Of a stretch of DNA of 32,856 nucleotides, positions 61 to 32,856 are shown piece by piece; position 1 is the first letter of the stretch; every line of letters starts with the position of its first letter. The stretch is from NCBI GenBank assembly GCA_028066985.1, contig JALCBB010000008.1, forward strand, positions 1-32,856. Direction: 5' to 3'. Made by a program: the position numbers and the translations under genes. The notes beneath the pieces were generated by a model, which was not told where the DNA came from, did not search any database, and was given only the letters and a program-made list of their open reading frames with translations. Origin of the DNA: Alphaproteobacteria bacterium. GTDB lineage: Bacteria > Pseudomonadota > Alphaproteobacteria > JALCBB01.

Positions 61-176
61 GAGACAGACGAAGGACAGCCCCTAGCATTAGTGGGCGAGA
101 ATTTCAGACTCTTACAGTAGCCGCTCAAGCGAACCGCGCCCACTGATGCCTGCGGGCGCCGCCCGCAAAAAATTAA
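61..176 (+). repeat. Single arm (type 1) of the dispersed inverted-repeat element family
   Basis: gagacagacgaaggacagcccctagcattagtgggcg...agccgctcaagcgaaccgcgcccactgatgcctgcgggcgccgcccgcaaaaaa matches the arms at 17521, 24177 and others. Confidence 0.85.
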
Positions 177-4800: not shown

Positions 4801-4931
4801 ACCATCAGGTCGTCGCCCGACACCCGGGTTTCGCCGGTGGTTATCCCCTGCCGACCGGGGTTCCTGCGCAAACGGACGGCCTGTCCGGAGACGGCGGGAT
4901 CCCAGTCTTCGCTGTTTGCCTTCTCTTTCAT
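1800..4931 (-). CDS. SNF2/RapA-like SF2 helicase (DEAH box)
   Basis: LLIADEVGLGKTIES (motif I), VIFDEAHYLRN (II), ILLTATPVQ (III), SSEVGSEGIDLQFCRLLVNYDLPWNPMRIEQRIGRLDRLGQ (V/VI); start taken at MKEKANSEDW behind GGAGGAAAC rather than the longer ORF start at 4964. Confidence 0.88.
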   Translation of the reverse strand: MKEKANSEDWDPAVSGQAVRLRRNPGRQGITTGETRVSGDDLMVEVRFGPSEKKFKNYGSLELIKDEPAIDLLRKGRFGKPADLMRVLTLQKIRGKLTNVYYSMESSNTDFYPHQFRPVLKFIESPTGRLLIADEVGLGKTIESIYIWKELQARRDARRLLVICPAMLREKWRDDMKKRFNISAEIVRADHLLETLQEASHRSNFVYIVSLEGVRTPPKYKYEDPKNKGTRARLARLLDAHPASDDFALLDLVIFDEAHYLRNRNTANNRLGQLMRDVARHMILLTATPVQIDNENLYQLMHLIDPEEFYNLDLFHQRLEANKPVISAMRSLWRKPYDLATAREEIDRATSSPYFADDETLRRAGERVLGDGSDPEKRIEIARVLESRSLLGQYMVRSRKREVLEKRVERDAQMIKLDFSAAEQDAYDGFINRIGRRIGGASFGKQLALIGRQRQMESSLVAALESWREKDFLKDLLWEDLGYSEKLSGGADADGGPAKDILDESEEWMNGAIDIDIKALEDNDTKYEELKKTLDEHGHEKCVVFAFFRGTLQYLGRRLEQDGVRACLIMGGMGDEKDRILNEFRSEDGPSVLLSSEVGSEGIDLQFCRLLVNYDLPWNPMRIEQRIGRLDRLGQKAPRISIVNLAVRSTIADRILLRLYERIELFRESIGDLEDILGRLTGKLMEELLDPGLTEEDRRRRADEATDVIINQRKTQNELEGAAVNLFGFSDFILDQVAESREKKRWISGEELIDFVDDFFRRKYFGSRIEIPAKKGASAQIQLSDNARMDLRSFIEKTKPAIQTRLHARSKPLPCIFDPRQTGAFRRDVELIDPIHPLIQWIREDCEEKQLHPVSAIRLKVTENLKQVSPGDYVFVVHLWSFEGIRVEQLLSYRAVRIDGDAPLPGILSEALVTLAAREGRAFPNASAVIDDAGGITKKALLCEKAMDAAFNDRKLEFRDENRLRCSQQETSARKFADRRIDGFQEQMEKFRARGNTQQIRMREGSVRKEREDLQIKLNRVSERRETDETVQPLAMGVIRVEK

Positions 4932-5064
4932 GTTTCCTCCGGCAGCGCCTGCGGACGCAGGCAAGGTTCATCCTGTGGAATAAACTATCCTCGCCGTTCT
5001 GTCAACTGCGCGCAAATGTCGCCCATGCGCGGCGAGATCAATGCAGTCCGTGGGCAAGATCGGC

Positions 5065-5455: not shown

Positions 5456-6769
5456 ATGAAAAAAGAAAAAAATAACTCCCCCCCCTCAGGAACCCGCGAC
5501 TTCCTCCCGCGCGAACTCCATCGCCGCCGCCAGGCCGCCGGCATCCTCGCCGACCGCTTCGAAAGACACGGCTTCCTCCCCGTGGAAACCCCCGCCCTGG
5601 AACGCATCCAGACACTCACAGGCGTCTACGGAGACGAAGGCGACAAACTCATCTTCAAAATCCTCCCCAGAGGACAACAAGCCGAACTCAACCCCCAGCC
5701 CGACCTCGCGCTCAGATACGACCTCACCGTGCCGGCCGTGCGCGCCCTCGCCGAACACGACCTGCTCCAGAAAGGCTTCCGCAGATACCAGATCGGGCCG
5801 GTCTGGCGCGCCGAACGCGCCGCGCGCGGAAGATTCCGCGAATTCTGGCAGTGCGACGTAGACCTCTACAACACGCCGACACCCCTCGCCGAAGCCGAGA
5901 CCGTCGCCGCCCTCGAAGGCGGCCTCCGCGACCTCGGCATGCGCGAACTCGTCATCTCGGTCAACACCCGCGGCATCCTCCGCAAACTCTGCGACCTCTT
6001 CAAAATCTCGGAGGCGCAGCGCAAAGCCGTCCTCATCGCCCTGGATAAACTTGACAAGTTCCCCATCCCCTCGGTGCGCCGCGAGATCGCCGCGATTCCC
6101 TGCTCCGGCGCGCGCCTTCTCGCCGACGCCCTCCACCCCGAATTCGCCGCCGAACTCCTGGACAAAGACACCCTCGACGGTCCCGAGCGCGACGAACTCG
6201 CCGAAATCACCGAGGCCGTCGCCGCCGCCGCCTCGCGCGACCTGGAAATCAGCGTCAATCCCCTCCTCGCGCGCGGGCTGGACTACTACACCGGCTTCAT
6301 CTTTGAATTTCACACCCTCGGCGGCAGCACGCGCGCCATCGCCGCCGGCGGCAGGTACGACAACCTCGCCGCCGAGGTCGCGGGCAGCGACTGCAGAATC
6401 TGCGGCGGCTCCATCGGACTGGAGCGCGTCCTGGACGAACTTGAAGTCCAGGACAGCATCTCGGCCCTTGACCCTCCCGCCGATGATGTCGTGCATCTCA
6501 CGCTTTTCTCGCCGGAGATGCTTGTCGCCACCGAGCAACTTGCGCGCGAGTTGCGCGACCTCGGGCTCAAGGTTTATGTCGGCCGCGGCGGCAAGATCGG
6601 CGATCAGTTCAAAGCCGCCGAGCGCGCCGGACACCGCCGTTGTCTCATCTACGGTCCCGACGAGGAGGAGAAGGCTGTCGTCACGCTCAAGGATCTGGAG
6701 ACCGGCGCGCAGAGCGAGGTCAGCATCTCCGATCTCGCCGGCCTCGTTGAAATTCTGAAGGGAATTTAG
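5456..6769 (+). CDS. hisS: Histidyl-tRNA synthetase
   Basis: GTRDFLPRE, QIGPVWRAERAARGRFREFWQCDVD (motif 2), LARGLDYYTGFIFE (HisA motif), C-terminal anticodon-binding-like domain; ATG at 5456. Confidence 0.9.
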   Translation: MKKEKNNSPPSGTRDFLPRELHRRRQAAGILADRFERHGFLPVETPALERIQTLTGVYGDEGDKLIFKILPRGQQAELNPQPDLALRYDLTVPAVRALAEHDLLQKGFRRYQIGPVWRAERAARGRFREFWQCDVDLYNTPTPLAEAETVAALEGGLRDLGMRELVISVNTRGILRKLCDLFKISEAQRKAVLIALDKLDKFPIPSVRREIAAIPCSGARLLADALHPEFAAELLDKDTLDGPERDELAEITEAVAAAASRDLEISVNPLLARGLDYYTGFIFEFHTLGGSTRAIAAGGRYDNLAAEVAGSDCRICGGSIGLERVLDELEVQDSISALDPPADDVVHLTLFSPEMLVATEQLARELRDLGLKVYVGRGGKIGDQFKAAERAGHRRCLIYGPDEEEKAVVTLKDLETGAQSEVSISDLAGLVEILKGI

Positions 6770-6990
6770 ACCCTCAAAGGTCTTACCCTCATCAAGTCCC
6801 GCAGTCCCGCAGGATTAAGTCGCGGGGACAGCGACCCTGCCGAAATTCTGAAGGGAATTTAGACCCTTAAAGGTCTCACCCTCATCAAGTTCCGCAGGTT
6901 TAAAGTCCCGCAGACTCCGACCTCGCCGAAATGCCGAAGGGAATTTAGACCCTCACAGGTCTCACCCTTGTTAAGTCCCGCAGACCGCGG
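6746..6990 (+). repeat. Three tandem imperfect ~86-93-bp repeats including the 3' end of hisS
   Basis: GAAAttctGAAGGGAATTTAGACCct(c/t)a(a/c)AGGTCT..ACCCT..T.AAGT.CCGCAG units starting near 6749, 6842 and 6928; each contains a short agacc...ggtct hairpin. Confidence 0.85.
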
Positions 6991-8724: not shown

Positions 8725-11700
8725 TTGGTGCAGTGGGCGACGGCGGCGGCGAAGAAATTAAAACCGTCGCCGCGTTCGGGGGCTGGCTTTCCGTCGCGTT
8801 TAAGACCGGCGGCGACCGTCGTCCAGTCGTGTCTTTGACGGAAGAGTGCGGCGCGTTCGGGGTGCGGCATCATCGCCAGGACGCGGCCGGTCGCATCCAG
8901 GAGGGCGGCGGCGTCGCGCGGCGAGCCGTTCGGGTTGTGGGGGTATTCGCCTTCGGCGAGTTTGTCGGCGCGGGGCAGGGCGTACTGGAGGGCGATTTGT
9001 CCGTTGTCGGCGAGGCGGTTCCAGGTTTCGGAGGCGGCGATGAAGCGTCCTTCGCCGTGAGCGACGGGGAGGAGGAGTTTTTTGTCCGCGTTTGTCAGCC
9101 ACGGACTTTGCGCGGCGACGCCTGTCCGCGAGACTTTGACGAACGAGGCGCGCGATTCGTATTTGCGGCTCGCGTTGGGGGCGAGGGAGACGGCGCCGTC
9201 GCCGACGAGGCCGAGTCTGAGAAGGACCTGGCAGCCGTTGCAGACGCCGAGGACGAGGCCGCCGCCGGTGATGAATTCGGCGAGGGGTTTGCCGGCTTGA
9301 TTTCGGAGGAGTGTCGCGAGGGCGTTGCCGGCGCCGGTGTCGTCGGCGAAACTGAAGCCGCCGGGGATGACGAAGATGTGCGTGCTGTTGAGGACGGCTT
9401 CGGGGTTTTGGAGGAAGTCGCTGATCTGGATGAGAGTTGCGCGGGCGCTGGCGAGGCGGAAGGCGTACTGGGTTTCGTCTTCGCAGTTGAGGCCGAGCCC
9501 GGAGAGGATGTTAACCTGGACGGATGAGGGCGATGATGATGTCAAAGCCTTTGACAGAGACTTGGACAGCGACTTGCCGCCGTGGTGGTCGTCTGTTTTT
9601 GTCCCCTTAATTGAAGGGACTAATTTTATTTTTTTGCAGGCAGCGCCTGCGGGCGACAGCGGGTGCTGCTCGCTTGAGCCGCCGTCGTGACCCGTCTTGA
9701 TTTCCCGCCCACTAATGCCAGGAGCCGCGCTTCGGGGGGACGACGGCAATGGCAGTCCCTCCTCGCAAAGGTCTGACAAAGCAATTCGCGCCTCGTCTGT
9801 CTTCATCCGCACACGAATTTCAGCGTCCCCGATCACCTCGCCGAGGCGGGCAAACTCCACGCCATGACGCGACATCACACCCTCAAACTCTCCGCATTTA
9901 ATCTCCTCAACCGTGCAAAGAATCCGTCCGCTCGTCTCGCAGAACAACAAACCCGCGACACTCTCCGCAACAAACGACAGGTCGCACGACACGCCCAGAC
10001 CAGAACCCAGACACCCGCGCGTCAAACCCGCCGCCAAGCCTCCCCCCTCAAGCGCCAGCGCGCTCGCCGCCATTCCCCGCGCCTCGCCGAACGCCGAAAA
10101 CAACACATCGCTCGCCTCCAGATTCACCGCCGCGACTCCGCCCGTCTCGCCGTCCGCAAGCCCCGCCATCGCCGCATACTCGCTCCCGCCAAGTCTGCCC
10201 CCCTCACTCGCGCCAAGCACATAAATCACATCGCCCGCGCGCTTGAACTCCGGCGAAATCAATTCGTCCCGGTGATCCAGCACGCCGAGCGACGAAATCA
10301 GCAAAGTCGGCAAGGAAGCGATCTCGGTCGCGGCGCCGTTCTCGTCAAAACCGTCAAAGCGGTTGTGCATGCTGTCCTTGCCCGAAATGAACGGAACATC
10401 CAGCGCGGTCGCCGCGTCAAAACATCCGCGCGCCGCCGCCAGGAGCGCCGCCAGCGCCGCGCCGCCGTTGTCGGGCCAGCAGAAGTTGTCCAGCAGCGCG
10501 ACGCGTCCGCGCGCGACGCCCGCCGCGACAAGATGCCGCGCCGCCGTCTCCACCGCCGCCGCCGCCATCTCGTATGCCGAGAAGCGTCCGACCTCCGGCA
10601 GCAGCGACTGCGCCAGGACCGCCGCCGCGTCGCGTCCCGCTGTCGGACAGAACGCCGAAATCCCCATCCGCGCCGCGCCGCATAAAGGTCCGTACAAAAA
10701 CCCGCCGCGCACAGTGTGATCGTAACGCCGCGCGATCCAGCCGTGCGCGCGAAGATTCGGACGCCGCATCAGCGCCGCCCATTCGTGCGCGATACTCCGG
10801 CCGTCGCCGACCTTTAACTTCGCCGCGCCTGTCACCGTCGCCGTCGCCTCCTCCCCCGCCTTTAACTTAAGAGACGGAGCGCCGTCGTGCAGAAATTTCA
10901 GGTCTAACTCGCCGACCGTCTCGTCCTCGTATTTCAGACGCAGAACGCCGGAGTCGTTGAAGTGTCCGATAGCCCATGCCTCGGTCTCGTAGCGCGCGAA
11001 GACGGCGAGCGTTTCGGCGAGGCGGTCGGGACGGACGGCGAGCGTCATTCTCTCCTGACTTTCCGAGACCCAGACCGCCCAGGGCGGCAGTCCCGGATAT
11101 TTGCGCGCGACCCGCTCAAGCCGCACCTCGGCGCCGCCGCTCTCGCGCGCCATCTCGCCGACCGATGACGAAAGTCCGCCCGCGCCGTTGTCGGTGACGC
11201 TGCTGTAGACGCCGAGGTCGCGCAGTTCGCGCAGGAGCGCGTCGCCGAGTTTGCGCTGCGTGAAGGGGTCGCCGAGCTGGACGGCGCCGGCGGGCGAGCC
11301 TTCGTCCAGCGAGGCGGACGAAAAAGTCGCGCCGTGGATGCCGTCGGCGCCGACGCGTCCGCCCGCCATGACGATGATGTCGCCGGCGCGCGCGCGCTTC
11401 TCGTGGACAGCGCGTCCGTCGGCGAGGCGGCGCGGCGCGACGCCGAGCGTGCCGCAGAACACAAGCGGCTTGCCGCGCCAGGAGTCGTGGTAGCGCGTGA
11501 AGCCCTGCATTGTCGGGATGCCGCTGCAGTTGCCGCCGCGTTCAATGCCGGCGACGACGCCGCTCCGCATTGCGCGGGGCGCGGGAAGCCGCGAGGTTTT
11601 TTTGTCGTCGCGGAAGAGGCGCGTCTCCTTTTCGCTGTCATTTTCGGCGCAGGGCGGGAGACAGAATCCGTAGCGATTGGCGACGGGCTGCGCGCCGAGT

Positions 11701-12842: not shown

Positions 12843-14381
12843 ATGCTCGAACGATACACCCGGCCAAGGATGGCAGAAATCTGGTCGGAGGAGAACCGAT
12901 TAACCGCCTGGCTTAAGGTGGAACAGGCGGTCGCCGTCGCAAGCGCGCGGCATGGAATCATCCCGCAGTCCGCCGCCGACGCCATTGCGCGCTGCTCCCC
13001 TCCGGATCGTGCGCGTGTTAAAGAACTTGACGCCGTTCTTCATCACGATGTCCTCGCGTTCCTCGACGCGATTCGCGAAACCCTCGGAGACGATGCGCGC
13101 TGGCTCCACTTTGGAATAACATCGTATGACGCTGTTGACACTGCCAACTCGCTGCTGCTGCGCGAGGCGGGTGAACATATACTGGAAGGAATCGAAAAAG
13201 TCGCCGAGACGATTCTCGTCCGCGCGCGCGAACATCGCGACACTCTTACCATCGGTCGCACGCACGGGATGCACGCGGAAATCACAACCTTCGGACTCAA
13301 ACTCCTCGGACACCGCGGCGAATTTCTGCGCGCGCATGACCGTCTGCGAACCGCCGTCTCCGAAATCTCGCGTTGCGCCATTTCGGGAGCGGTCGGCACA
13401 TTTCCGCATCTCCCGCCCGAAGTGGAGTCGGATGTCGCCGAAATTCTCGGACTTTCCGTTGAGCCTGTTTCCACGCAGGTCATTCCCCGCGACCGTCACG
13501 CTTCTTTTATTTTCGCGCTCGCCCTGACGGCATCCGCCGTCGAGCGTCTGGCGGTGGAAATTCGTCACCTCCAGCGCAACGAGATCGGCGAGGTCGCCGA
13601 ACCGTTTACAGATAAGCAGAAGGGATCATCGGCGATGCCTCACAAGCGCAATCCCGTACTCAGCGAGAATCTCACGGGACTTGCGAGACTCATCCGCGCC
13701 CAGGTCGCGCCCGCGCTTGAGAACATTGTTCTCTGGCACGAGCGCGACATCTCTCATTCGTCCGTGGAGCGCGCGATTTTTCCCGACTGCTGCGCTCTGG
13801 CGGACTTCGCCCTTGCGCGTCTTGAGCGGATGATTTCCGGCCTTGAGGTCTATCCCGAAAAGATGGAAAAAAACATCGCGTTGAGCGGCAGACGGGTATA
13901 CAGCCAGTCGTTCCAGCTGGAGCTGAAGCGCGCCGGAATGACATGCGAGGACGCCTATCGTCTCGTTCAGCGTCACGCGTTCACCATTGACAACGGCAGG
14001 GAGTTCCTCGCCTCTCTTGTGGCGGACGACGAGGTTCGGGATAATGCAAATATATCAATGGAGGCGTTCGAGCGTCTGACCGATACGGATGAAATCCGCA
14101 GGCACCTGTATGCTCTTTTTGACGATCGCCTTGCCAGGCAGGTGTCATCAGACGACCATGCGCCCCGCGAGACCGGAACAACCGAAACGACCGATGTGAA
14201 AGTATCTTCGGTCGTTGAAGAAGAGGAGGAGACGAATCCATCATGGGAAACGAGCAACTTGCCTCGGTTGCACCCTCCTACGCCGAGTCGGGCGTCAGTC
14301 TCGTACGCGCAGAGACAGCCGCAGATATCGCCCGCAAAACCGCGGGGAAGCACAGACATCGCGGCGTCATCGAAGAGATAG
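12843..14381 (+). CDS. purB: Adenylosuccinate lyase
   Basis: MLERYTRPRMAEIWSEENR, TIGRTHGMHAEITTFG, GSSAMPHKRNPVLSENLTGLAR signature; C-terminal end overlaps purM. Confidence 0.92.
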   Translation: MLERYTRPRMAEIWSEENRLTAWLKVEQAVAVASARHGIIPQSAADAIARCSPPDRARVKELDAVLHHDVLAFLDAIRETLGDDARWLHFGITSYDAVDTANSLLLREAGEHILEGIEKVAETILVRAREHRDTLTIGRTHGMHAEITTFGLKLLGHRGEFLRAHDRLRTAVSEISRCAISGAVGTFPHLPPEVESDVAEILGLSVEPVSTQVIPRDRHASFIFALALTASAVERLAVEIRHLQRNEIGEVAEPFTDKQKGSSAMPHKRNPVLSENLTGLARLIRAQVAPALENIVLWHERDISHSSVERAIFPDCCALADFALARLERMISGLEVYPEKMEKNIALSGRRVYSQSFQLELKRAGMTCEDAYRLVQRHAFTIDNGREFLASLVADDEVRDNANISMEAFERLTDTDEIRRHLYALFDDRLARQVSSDDHAPRETGTTETTDVKVSSVVEEEEETNPSWETSNLPRLHPPTPSRASVSYAQRQPQISPAKPRGSTDIAASSKR

Positions 14382-17476: not shown

Positions 17477-17818
17477 GAGACAAACGAAGCGCGGCCCCTG
17501 GCATTAGTGGGAGTTAAATAAGAGACAGACGAAGTGCGGCCCTTGGCATTAGTGGGAGTCTGACTAAGACATTCACAATGTCGGCTCAAGCGAACCGCAC
17601 CCGCTGATGCCCGCAGGCGCTGCCTGCAAAAAAATAAATTAAAGATTAAATGGACTATTTAAGGGGTCAATTAAATAAATTGCTTTCTTATTAATTTTTA
17701 ATTTTTTTTTGCGGGCTAGCCCGCACCCGTCTGCTGGCATTGTTCGCTTGAGCCGCTGTTGTGAATGTCTTAGTCAAACTCCCACTAATGCCAGGGGCCG
17801 TGCTTCGTTTGTCCCTAT
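17477..17818. repeat. Dispersed inverted-repeat element, near full length (type 1 arm, AT-rich core, type 2 arm), preceded by a short extra arm fragment
   Basis: Arms gacgaagtgcggcccttggcattagtggg...gcaggcgctgcctgcaaaaaaa and ttttttgcgggctagcccgcacccgtctg...cccactaatgccaggggccgtgcttcgtttgtc; core taaggggtcaattaaataaattgc. Confidence 0.92.
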
Positions 17819-18698: not shown

Positions 18699-18716
18699 CA
18701 CCTGTTTTTACGGCTC

Positions 18717-18782
18717 TTGTCCGTGCTTGCGCCACAGGTAGTGGGTGACGGAAACGGCGACACTCCAGCACAGCATCGCCTC
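18717..18782. repeat. ~65-bp direct repeat, copy 1; could encode a C-terminal remnant of the AbiJ-like protein on the minus strand
   Basis: ttgtccgtgcttgcgccacaggtagtgGgtgacggaaacggcgacactccagcacagcatcgcCtc, two mismatches to copy 2; minus-strand reading ...[23 protein letters not shown]. Confidence 0.9.
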
Positions 18783-18966
18783 ACCCACGGCATCTAGTAG
18801 TCAGCGTTTCTCGGGGAGTCTCCCCCGCCCTCCCACTTCCCTGTTTCTCAAGAAACACCCCCTAGCCCATACTTGCCATCTCTGGGCTAGAGGTTTATGC
18901 TCACACTGACAGTGCGCGGTTTTTGCTGCCTGACCACAAAGCCATTCGCAGGAAAGGAGGCTTACA

Positions 18967-20270: not shown

Positions 20271-20278
20271 TGACATGT

Positions 20279-21289
20279 TCATGGTTTTTGTCCGTGCTTG
20301 CGCCACAGGTAGTGCGTGACGGAAACGGCGACACTCCAGCACAGCATCGCTTCGGCCTCGGTGATTGGAGGCCGCTTTTTACTGTCGGGTTGCCCATGTC
20401 GTGGACCATCGCTGGCATAGCCATACAGCCTGACAAGTGATGCCTCAAGCGCGCCGTGCAAATGCAGAGACTTAACCGCGTCCTGAAAATTTGACTCCCC
20501 GGTAAGGTCGCGCACCGCGGACTCGACAGCATGAACACTCTCGCGCACGGCTCCGTCAAAGTCTCTATTTTTGAGATTTTGTGAGGCGGCTCCCAGATGT
20601 TTTTTGACCTCTTGCCAGTCCGACTGTTCAACGCCCGCCACATTGGCTTGCATCATATCATCCTCCTCCGCCGAGCCAATTGGCTTTATGCGATATCGCC
20701 CATTGGATTCGGCCAAGTAGTACCCCTCCCTGTGCTTATCCAGGGATTCTTTTATTGTGTCGTTCAGTCCAGCGGATTCGCAGAACTCATCGTTGCACAG
20801 AAATTCGAGAAAATCCATGCATTTGTTAAATCCCGTCCGATCTGGAATCGTGCCGGGGGGAGTATGTTCGTTAGGCGATGAGAAGATGTCTGGCGAGAAG
20901 AAGCCTTCTCTATCAAGCGCCAAAATTTCTTCGGCATGGCCGAGAAATTTTCTTGCGAGACTGTGAACCTCATCCGCATCCCAATTGTGAGAAGATGCGA
21001 TCGAGAACGTCTGATTAGAGACACCTTCAAAGGTATAACGCACCTCGACGGATTCAGATTCTTTTCTGAGATAGTACCGTACATAATTTACCATGAAATC
21101 TCTCATCTGGAAGAAGGACATTGCCACCAACGAGTCCGCCAAACCTATAAACACATCCAATCTGAAGTCTTTGCTCAAAGTGCCCTGCTGATACGGAGTA
21201 GGAACAGGCTCGCCGCCGTGGCGCTGCGAGAACGGCAGGTCCTCGTGGGAATGACCTTTAGGGTCGCGGGGAGGTTTTTTGTCAGTCAT
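20279..21289 (-). CDS. AbiJ-NTD4/HEPN-like protein (candidate abortive-infection type)
   Basis: N-term [34 protein letters not shown]-term [19 protein letters not shown]...[23 protein letters not shown]...[21 protein letters not shown]; start codon overlaps purE stop by 8 nt. Confidence 0.65.
20288..20352. repeat. ~65-bp direct repeat, copy 2 (3' end of the AbiJ-like CDS)
   Basis: ttgtccgtgcttgcgccacaggtagtgCgtgacggaaacggcgacactccagcacagcatcgcTtc. Confidence 0.9.
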
Positions 21290-21860
21290 CCTGGGGATAC
21301 TCCGGGACAGAGGCGGTCTGGCGGGCGCGGAACGAAGACAATCGCTCCGACAAAACTTTATCATTAAGCGCCAGAATTGCAATACACAACAGCGCCGCGT
21401 TTTTCGCTCCATGCTTGCCCACGCCGAATGTCGCCACAGGAATCCCGCCAGGCATCTGCGCCGTCGCCAGCAAAGAATCCAAGCCCAGCAAGCCTCCCTC
21501 AAGCGGAACCCCCAATACAGGCTTCTGCGTCAACGCCGCCGTCACTCCCGCCAGATGCGCCGCCATCCCCGCGCCGCAGATAAACACCTCCACGCCGGAC
21601 GCGCCCGTCACATACGCATGATGCCGCGCAGGAGTGCGATGCGCCGAAATCACCCGCGCGTCATACGGCACCTTGAAGTCGTCCAGAATCTTCGCCGCCG
21701 CCTCCATCACAGGCCAGTCCGAACGACTCCCCATCAGGATCGCCACACGCGCCCCGCGCTTCACCGACACCTTTTTTGTCGGCGCCGTTTTTGTCGCCCG
21801 CTTCGCCGACGCCTTTTTTGCCGCCGTTTTCGCCGGTGCCTTTTTCGTTTTCCGTGCCAT
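21282..21860 (-). CDS. purE: N5-CAIR mutase / AIR carboxylase with Lys/Ala-rich N-terminal extension
   Basis: [86 protein letters not shown]; start [11 protein letters not shown] behind aaaggagt. Confidence 0.92.
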
Positions 21861-24170: not shown

Positions 24171-24657
24171 TAAAGAGACAACGAAGCGCGGCCCCTGGCA
24201 TTAGTGGGAGTTGGACTAAGACAGTCACGATAGCCGCTCAAGCGAACCGCACCCACTGATGCCTGCAGGCGCTGCCTGCAAAAAAATTAAAATTAAAAGA
24301 AATTAATTTAATTAATTGACACCATTAATTGTCTATTAGTAATTAAGAAAAACAATTTATTTAATTGACCCCTTAAACAGTCAATAAATTATTATTTATT
24401 TTTTGCGGGCTAGCCCGCACCCATCTGCCGGCATCGCTCGCTTGAGCCGACACTGTGAATGTCTTAGTCCAACGCCCACTAATGCCGAGGGCCGCACGCC
24501 GATTTAATTGACCCCTTAAATAGTCCATTTAATTTTTAATTTTTTTTGGCGGCAGTGCCGCCAGCCATCTGTGGGCATCGCTCGCTTGAGCCAGCATTGT
24601 GAATGTCTTAGTCAAACTCCCACTAATGCCAGGGGGCGCGCTTCGTTTGTCTCTTAA
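24171..24657. repeat. Dispersed inverted-repeat element with one type 1 arm and two tandem type 2 arms
   Basis: taaagagacaacgaagcgcggcccctggcattagtggg...gcaggcgctgcctgcaaaaaaa / ttttttgcgggctagcccgc.../ ttttttttggcggcagtgccgcc...cccactaatgccagggggcgcgcttcgtttgtctctta. Confidence 0.92.
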
Positions 24658-27580: not shown

Positions 27581-28000
27581 TAACAGACGAAGTGCGGCCT
27601 TTGGCATTAGTGGGAGTTTGACTAAGACATTCACAATAGTGGCTCAAGCGAGCGATGCCAGCAGATGGGTGCGGGCTAGCCCGCAAAAAAAATTAAAAAA
27701 ATAATTTGACTATTTAAGGGGTCAATTAAATAAATTGCTTTCTTATTAATTGACTATTAATGGTGTTAATTAAATAAATTATTTTCTTTTTAATTTAATT
27801 TTTTTTGCAGGCAGCGCCTGCGGGCATCAGTGGGTGTGTTTCGCTTGAGCGGCTGTTGTGAATGTCTAAGTCAAACTCCCACTAATGCCAGCGGCGAGCC
27901 GCCGCAGGCATCAGTTGGTGCGGTTCGCTTGAGCCAGCACTGTGACTGTCTTAGTCAAACGCCCGCTAATGCCGAAGGCTGTTCTTCGTCCGTCTCTTAA
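27581..28000. repeat. Dispersed inverted-repeat element in the opposite core orientation (type 2 arm, core, two tandem type 1 arms)
   Basis: taacagacgaagtgcggcctttggcattagtggg...gcgggctagcccgcaaaaaaaa / ttttttttgcaggcagcgcctgc... / gcggcgagccgccgc...ttcttcgtccgtctcttaa. Confidence 0.92.
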
Positions 28001-32619: not shown

Positions 32620-32856
32620 ACAGACGAAGAGCAACCTTTGGCATTAGTGAGAGTTAAATTTAGACATTCACGATAGCCGCTCAAGCAAGCGATGCCAGCA
32701 GACGGGTGCGGGCTAGCCCGCAAAAAATTAAAAAATTAATTTGACTATTAATAGACAGACGACAATAACAGTGTCAATTAAATCGGCGTCAGGCATTTGG
32801 CATTAGTGGGCGTTTGACTAAGACATTCACGGTGTCGGCTCAAGCGAGCGATGCCA
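32620..32856. repeat. Dispersed element, two direct type 2 left arms, truncated by window end
   Basis: acagacgaagagcaacctttggcattagtgagag...gcgggctagcccgcaaaaaatt...catttggcattagtgggcgtttgactaagacattcacggtgtcggctcaagcgagcgatgcca. Confidence 0.88.

Follow-up and report, generated by a model that had tools for sequence, protein, structure and literature searches.

Palindromic repeats that have become part of protein-coding genes are familiar chiefly from Rickettsia and Wolbachia, in which they interrupt single genes. The Rickettsia palindromic elements (RPEs; Ogata et al., 2000, as reviewed in PMC2229807 and PMC10969869) are about 105-150 bp long and occupy in-frame positions in 19 protein genes of Rickettsia, among which guanylate kinase provides an expressed and active RPE-carrying example (PMC2229807; PMC10969869; PMC5896051). 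The protein-coding palindromic repeats of Wolbachia are ascribed to Ogata et al. (2005), as cited in PMC2229807, and in-frame ORFs have also been described in ERIC, YPAL, NEMIS and QMITE elements (PMC2229807; PMC10969869; PMC5896051). Here, we describe a repeat of this general kind in a contig stretch of 32,856 nucleotides from an uncultured alphaproteobacterium of another lineage (the window, the whole stretch of DNA that was analysed), where it is translated between PurL and PurQ.

The repeat copy within the purL::purQ reading frame

The first-pass annotation had taken the reverse strand of 9622-9734 for a repeat arm that is translated in frame within purL, and both parts of this claim have been borne out. 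The arm recurs in at least 57 other places of its own genome (40 of 637 candidates scored; best among the matches listed, 88% identity, E 8e-35), its matches to two of the intergenic copies, those downstream of purF and upstream of purD, span essentially its whole length, and the strength of its matches to other copies is far beyond chance. The ORF of 1342 codons is open throughout, with the translation as quoted. As for the limits of the arm, they hold for the core, but the full element extends further: the purL copy and its sisters on contigs C50, C80 and C45 can be aligned from CCCCGAAG to CACCACGG (about 9737-9580), which takes the match well past the end first reported, across the A7 run and the second palindrome and into the conserved tail ACAGACGACCACCACGG (Table 1).

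The short hairpin of the element covaries across copies: all cells (100%) are paired, both sides have changed in two of the pairs, and 0 of 500 shuffles reach the covariation score. Further paired variants are present across the family. Near the 3' end, the purL copy carries 7 nt more than its sister copies, which bring the downstream sequence into the frame of purQ, and its longest exact match to any other copy examined is 35 nt. Terminal inverted repeats were not recognised in the 158-nt element, nor was a target-site duplication seen in the alignment of copies, in which the edges of the element are fuzzy. Rfam matches in the window are to tRNAs only, and a known RNA family was set aside on this ground.

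The predicted protein comprises PurL (about residues 1-1000), the repeat-derived linker (about 1001-1053; for example, the peptide TGHDGGSSEQHPLSPAGAACK) and PurQ from about residue 1065. NCBIfam profiles match PurL at 220-990 and PurQ at 1072-1305, and Pfam recognises AIRS, AIRS_C, the FGAR-AT linker and a complete GATase_5 domain. Measured against the curated cut-offs of TIGR01735, NF003672 and TIGR01857, the ORF falls far below all three (277 vs 1123, 334 vs 783 and 315 vs 1057 bits, respectively). A search for a second purQ across the own genome, of which the completeness is given as 95%, returned none besides the fused one. An AlphaFold model of the fusion protein, built from 24 sequences, has a mean pLDDT of 66.9 and leaves residues 907-1069 almost wholly without confident structure; the model agrees with a flexible linker, but carries little weight, as about 90 PurL residues ahead of the linker, which should fold, are also of low confidence.

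Comparison with relatives that lack the element, a check proposed in the first-pass annotation, places the repeat precisely. In G001, the sole same-family relative compared (46-47% identical), purL and purQ are separate genes with a GTGA stop/start overlap, its locus giving the same tblastn alignment as OY279575. Further, the two genes are separate in every alphaproteobacterial PurSL-type locus checked, mostly overlapping by a few nucleotides, and the 18 fused loci found, from Gammaproteobacteria and other phyla, are all of the distant large-PurL types. The PurL of relatives terminates where the element begins, and their PurQ starts just beyond it. Judged by this alignment, the element occupies what was once the boundary between purL and purQ, which makes the ORF a secondary PurL::PurQ fusion. 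The placement of the arm between the FGAM-synthase and glutaminase parts was therefore correct, but not its description as an insertion into a long-standing linker between the domains of an ordinary large PurL, the parts being separate genes in relatives. At the place equivalent to the GTGA of G001, the window has TTGA, yielding MTSSSPSSVQVNILSG where the counterpart in G001 yields MSRFHKSSPKVTVLAG; it may be a relic of the ancestral purQ start and purL stop. The linker sequence in relatives free of the repeat family, an observation that had been named beforehand as speaking against insertion, was found in none.

Table 1. Features of the window that belong to the fused reading frame or to the repeat family
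Feature	Position	Strand	Basis
purL::purQ fusion ORF, 1342 aa/codons	8709..12737	-	ORF list, Pfam and NCBIfam
Whole repeat element, 158 nt, codons 1001-1053, edges +/- ~4 nt	9580..9737	-	Homology to sister copies
Core arm common to intergenic copies	9622..9734	-	Own-genome matches and HMM hits
Hairpin GCAGGC-GCT-GCCTGC, in-frame reading AGAAC	9636..9650	-	Compensatory changes across copies
A7 run; 1-base slip in either direction reaches a stop within ~9 codons	9629..9635	-	
Second palindrome GTCCCTTCAATTAAGGGGAC, with 7-nt insertion vs sister copies at 3' end	9601..9620	-	Alignment
TTGA: in-frame TTG overlapping out-of-frame TGA	9542..9545	-	GTGA at equivalent place in G001
Intergenic arm copy	70..176	+	HMM
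Intergenic arm copy, inverted pair with 17700-17806, downstream of purF	17530..17638 (by HMM, 17531..17638)	+	82% to purL arm, E 5.6e-24; HMM
Intergenic arm copy, second arm of inverted pair	17700..17806	-	HMM
Intergenic arm copy upstream of purD	24182..24294 (by HMM, 24183..24290)	+	82% to purL arm, E 3.5e-25; HMM
Intergenic arm copy	24395..24497	-	HMM
Intergenic arm copy, 144 nt from neighbour	24537..24644	-	HMM
Intergenic arm copy	27589..27695	+	HMM
Intergenic arm copy	27796..27895	-	HMM
Intergenic arm copy, truncated	27902..27987	-	HMM
Intergenic arm copy	32626..32732	+	HMM
Arm copy cut by window end	32792..32855	+	HMM

Copy number and coding copies of the repeat family

An HMM census over 702 kb of contigs not picked for the repeat, out of a draft of 2.01 Mb in 199 contigs, recorded 298 arms of near-full length, and hits to the arm, all taken together, make up 4.7% of bases; extrapolated at this density, the genome would hold about 850 arms. 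Some copies are arranged as tandem or inverted pairs. An arm lies within 300 nt of 78 of 116 contig ends (own-genome stretches L159-L198 and L265-L284), and the family is probably what fragments the assembly. The element is absent from plasmid records and from 288 other alphaproteobacterial genomes including that of the nearest relative, G001, the own genome being detected in the same search; viral contigs also gave no match, in a weak scan that required an exact 26-nt pattern. Mobilisation as a RAYT-dependent REP was rejected, since no Y1_Tnp domain (PF01797) is found in the own genome with controls positive, and the element greatly exceeds a REP in length.

Searches by peptide and by ORF brought to light other coding copies. 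LivG and LivF form one ORF of 557 aa joined by the element (L190 4520-6190, minus strand, contig C32), and in G001 livG and livF are split by a single TAA. CobI carries about 125-140 extra residues that include two element copies (L185 2998-4146, minus strand, contig C27), an insert that is absent in G001 and G002, and DctM carries about 160 extra residues (L289 7324-9168, minus strand, contig C189) that are absent in a 55%-identical paralogue of the same genome. The element makes up C-terminal extensions of LivM and CbiX, and an FtsI-like transpeptidase has it in opposite orientation in its C-terminal extension (L176 3020-5413, plus strand, contig C18). Copies near the N-termini of FliI (two copies) and AmiC are less certain, the true start codon being uncertain. 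A second in-frame repeat, KGGVxSRGVVDxDGD, accompanies the element in the CobI and DctM inserts and is also present in CbiX. Other long ORFs with arms (C56, C51, C52, C31, C42, C132 and C164) are without Pfam support, look antisense, UTR or unproven, and were not retained.

All 10 of the 10 forward coding copies use one phase, which reads HDxGSSExHPLxPAGAAxKK, and across the family forward phases 0, 1 and 2 are equally often open (30/359, 30/355 and 33/355). Nine coding copies have the GCGGGCGCTGCCCGC hairpin variant and are not fully independent; the purL copy, with the other common variant, appears to stem from an event of its own. Differences among coding copies at the three codon positions amount to 1.67, 3.09 and 2.84, with no third-position excess, a pattern that gives no sign of a peptide under selection. 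Taken with the covarying hairpin, this absence of excess points to conservation at the level of DNA or RNA, and the repeat peptide is most readily understood as a spacer that is tolerated and not as a selected sequence. The behaviour of the element resembles that of in-frame palindromic elements of Rickettsia, as had been proposed, in that several unrelated genes carry it in one phase; its local hairpins are conserved, and the fold of the whole 158-nt element was no better than those of its shuffles (z -1.04).

Some further observations pertain to the window. A piece resembling the hairpin of the element lies at 4926-4957, just upstream of the ATG and ribosome-binding site of a helicase-like gene. 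At 6724-6983, three copies in tandem, each of about 81-93 nt, begin within the 3' end of a hisS/hisZ-like gene and give the impression of a duplicated gene end, and a stretch of 84 nt occurs twice at 89% identity (18707-18790 and 20278-20361), the second copy being the 3' end of the ORF 21502..20279. At 14243-14381, a purB-like ORF overlaps the start of purM by about 139 nt in another frame, which is unusually long.

Origin of the joined reading frame

In our judgement, it is likely that the repeat landed at the purL/purQ boundary and gave one ORF in which the two halves of one enzyme of purine synthesis are joined by a tolerated spacer. A palindromic repeat of the MITE or RPE kind, specific to the lineage and present in many copies, would have landed between the adjacent genes and displaced the purL stop codon, leaving the frame open through to purQ with the aid of the 7-nt indel at the 3' end of the element. 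The product would be a single predicted chain of FGAM synthetase and glutaminase with about 53 residues of translated repeat between them, tolerated as a flexible spacer. It is established for this enzyme family that PurL and PurQ constitute one complex that channels ammonia, and tethering the two is therefore likely to be neutral or mildly favourable. We infer that the insertion caused the fusion and that the fused PurL::PurQ protein is made and working.

The same arrangement could have arisen if PurL and PurQ had been fused earlier by loss of a stop codon and the element had entered the young linker later. Given the overlapping stop and start in relatives, a small indel would have been enough for this, and the putative relic TTGA at 9545-9542 suggests that the old purQ start region survived. 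This order of events is nevertheless improbable, as two events are needed and not one, the start of the element lies no more than a few codons from where PurL is expected to end, and the livG/livF pair repeats the coincidence of element and fusion. Insertion before fusion is the likelier order, judged from a comparison that covers one distant relative of the family. The ORF might also be open and yet give two proteins, if translation of PurQ began at the internal TTG while some PurL chains ended through slippage within the A7 run or through cleavage of the RNA at the hairpin, a reading that we hold to be very improbable. The in-frame TTG at 9545 is preceded by a purine-rich stretch and could start PurQ separately, but it is without a well-spaced Shine-Dalgarno sequence; stops follow the A7 run (9635-9629) soon in both other frames, but seven bases are short for transcriptional slippage, and the covarying hairpin lies upstream and not downstream of the A-run.

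Assembly error, which the first-pass annotation had itself raised, would require that two places were misjoined through the repeat. The repeat does stand at most contig ends and breaks the assembly, but the adjacency of purL and purQ is ancestral, so that the join is the one expected, and the purL copy shares at most 35 identical nucleotides with any other copy examined. Moreover, the frame is open on both sides, the 7-nt indel does not occur in the sister copies shown, and similar in-frame copies exist on other contigs. The divergence of the purL copy and the ancestral adjacency that it spans make misjoining very unlikely. Insertion at the gene boundary remains the preferred account.

Relation to known elements and to multidomain enzymes

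Among the closest described counterparts is the RPE, which likewise is a repeat of about 110-160 bp with stem-loops, found in intergenic regions and in frame in unrelated conserved genes, in a bacterium that is also an alphaproteobacterium. The present element occurs in frame within PurL::PurQ, LivG::LivF, CobI and DctM and at the C-termini of LivM, CbiX and FtsI. It differs from the RPEs in its far higher copy number by extrapolation, in bridging adjacent partner genes, in having some tandem or inverted pairs and no recognised terminal inverted repeats, and in having no relative in the 288 other genomes, which may or may not include Rickettsia. The element works like the RPEs; since the comparison was one of described features and not of sequence with the ten RPE families, and no terminal inverted repeats were found, it is not filed as one. 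The Wolbachia repeats are similarly coding and palindromic and come from another alphaproteobacterium; the host lineage differs, and the likeness, drawn from their description as cited, is one of description and not of sequence. ERIC, YPAL, Correia/NEMIS and Coxiella QMITE elements (PMC2229807; PMC5896051) are also small and non-autonomous, and some lie in frame or change the ends of proteins, but they are defined by terminal inverted repeats and target-site duplications, and some by a parent IS, neither of which is established for the present element.

On the side of the enzyme, the large single-chain PurL (TIGR01735/NF003672) also has synthetase and glutaminase on one chain, with 1T3T as a solved structure; the window protein, in contrast, is of the alphaproteobacterial PurSL plus PurQ type, with a fusion that would be secondary and repeat-borne. 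No precedent for gene fusions made by a repeat was found in the literature searched, which was mostly without subscription papers and is no proof of priority. The bridging of two adjacent partner genes into one ORF by an element, seen twice here, appears to be new.

Overall, protein-coding palindromic repeats are met here in another alphaproteobacterial lineage, as a family that takes up just under 5% of the genome and resides both inside genes and between two partner pairs, each of which is now one ORF. The family might recurrently fuse genes where it enters the boundaries of overlapping operon genes, making single chains of partner subunits, and the fusions might be kept because tethering helps, a proposal that we regard as unlikely; if true, selfish repeat DNA builds multidomain enzymes. 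Fused multidomain enzymes could arise from repeat DNA by a concrete route of this sort; relatives still display the ancestral, unfused arrangement, and the system is open to biochemical test.
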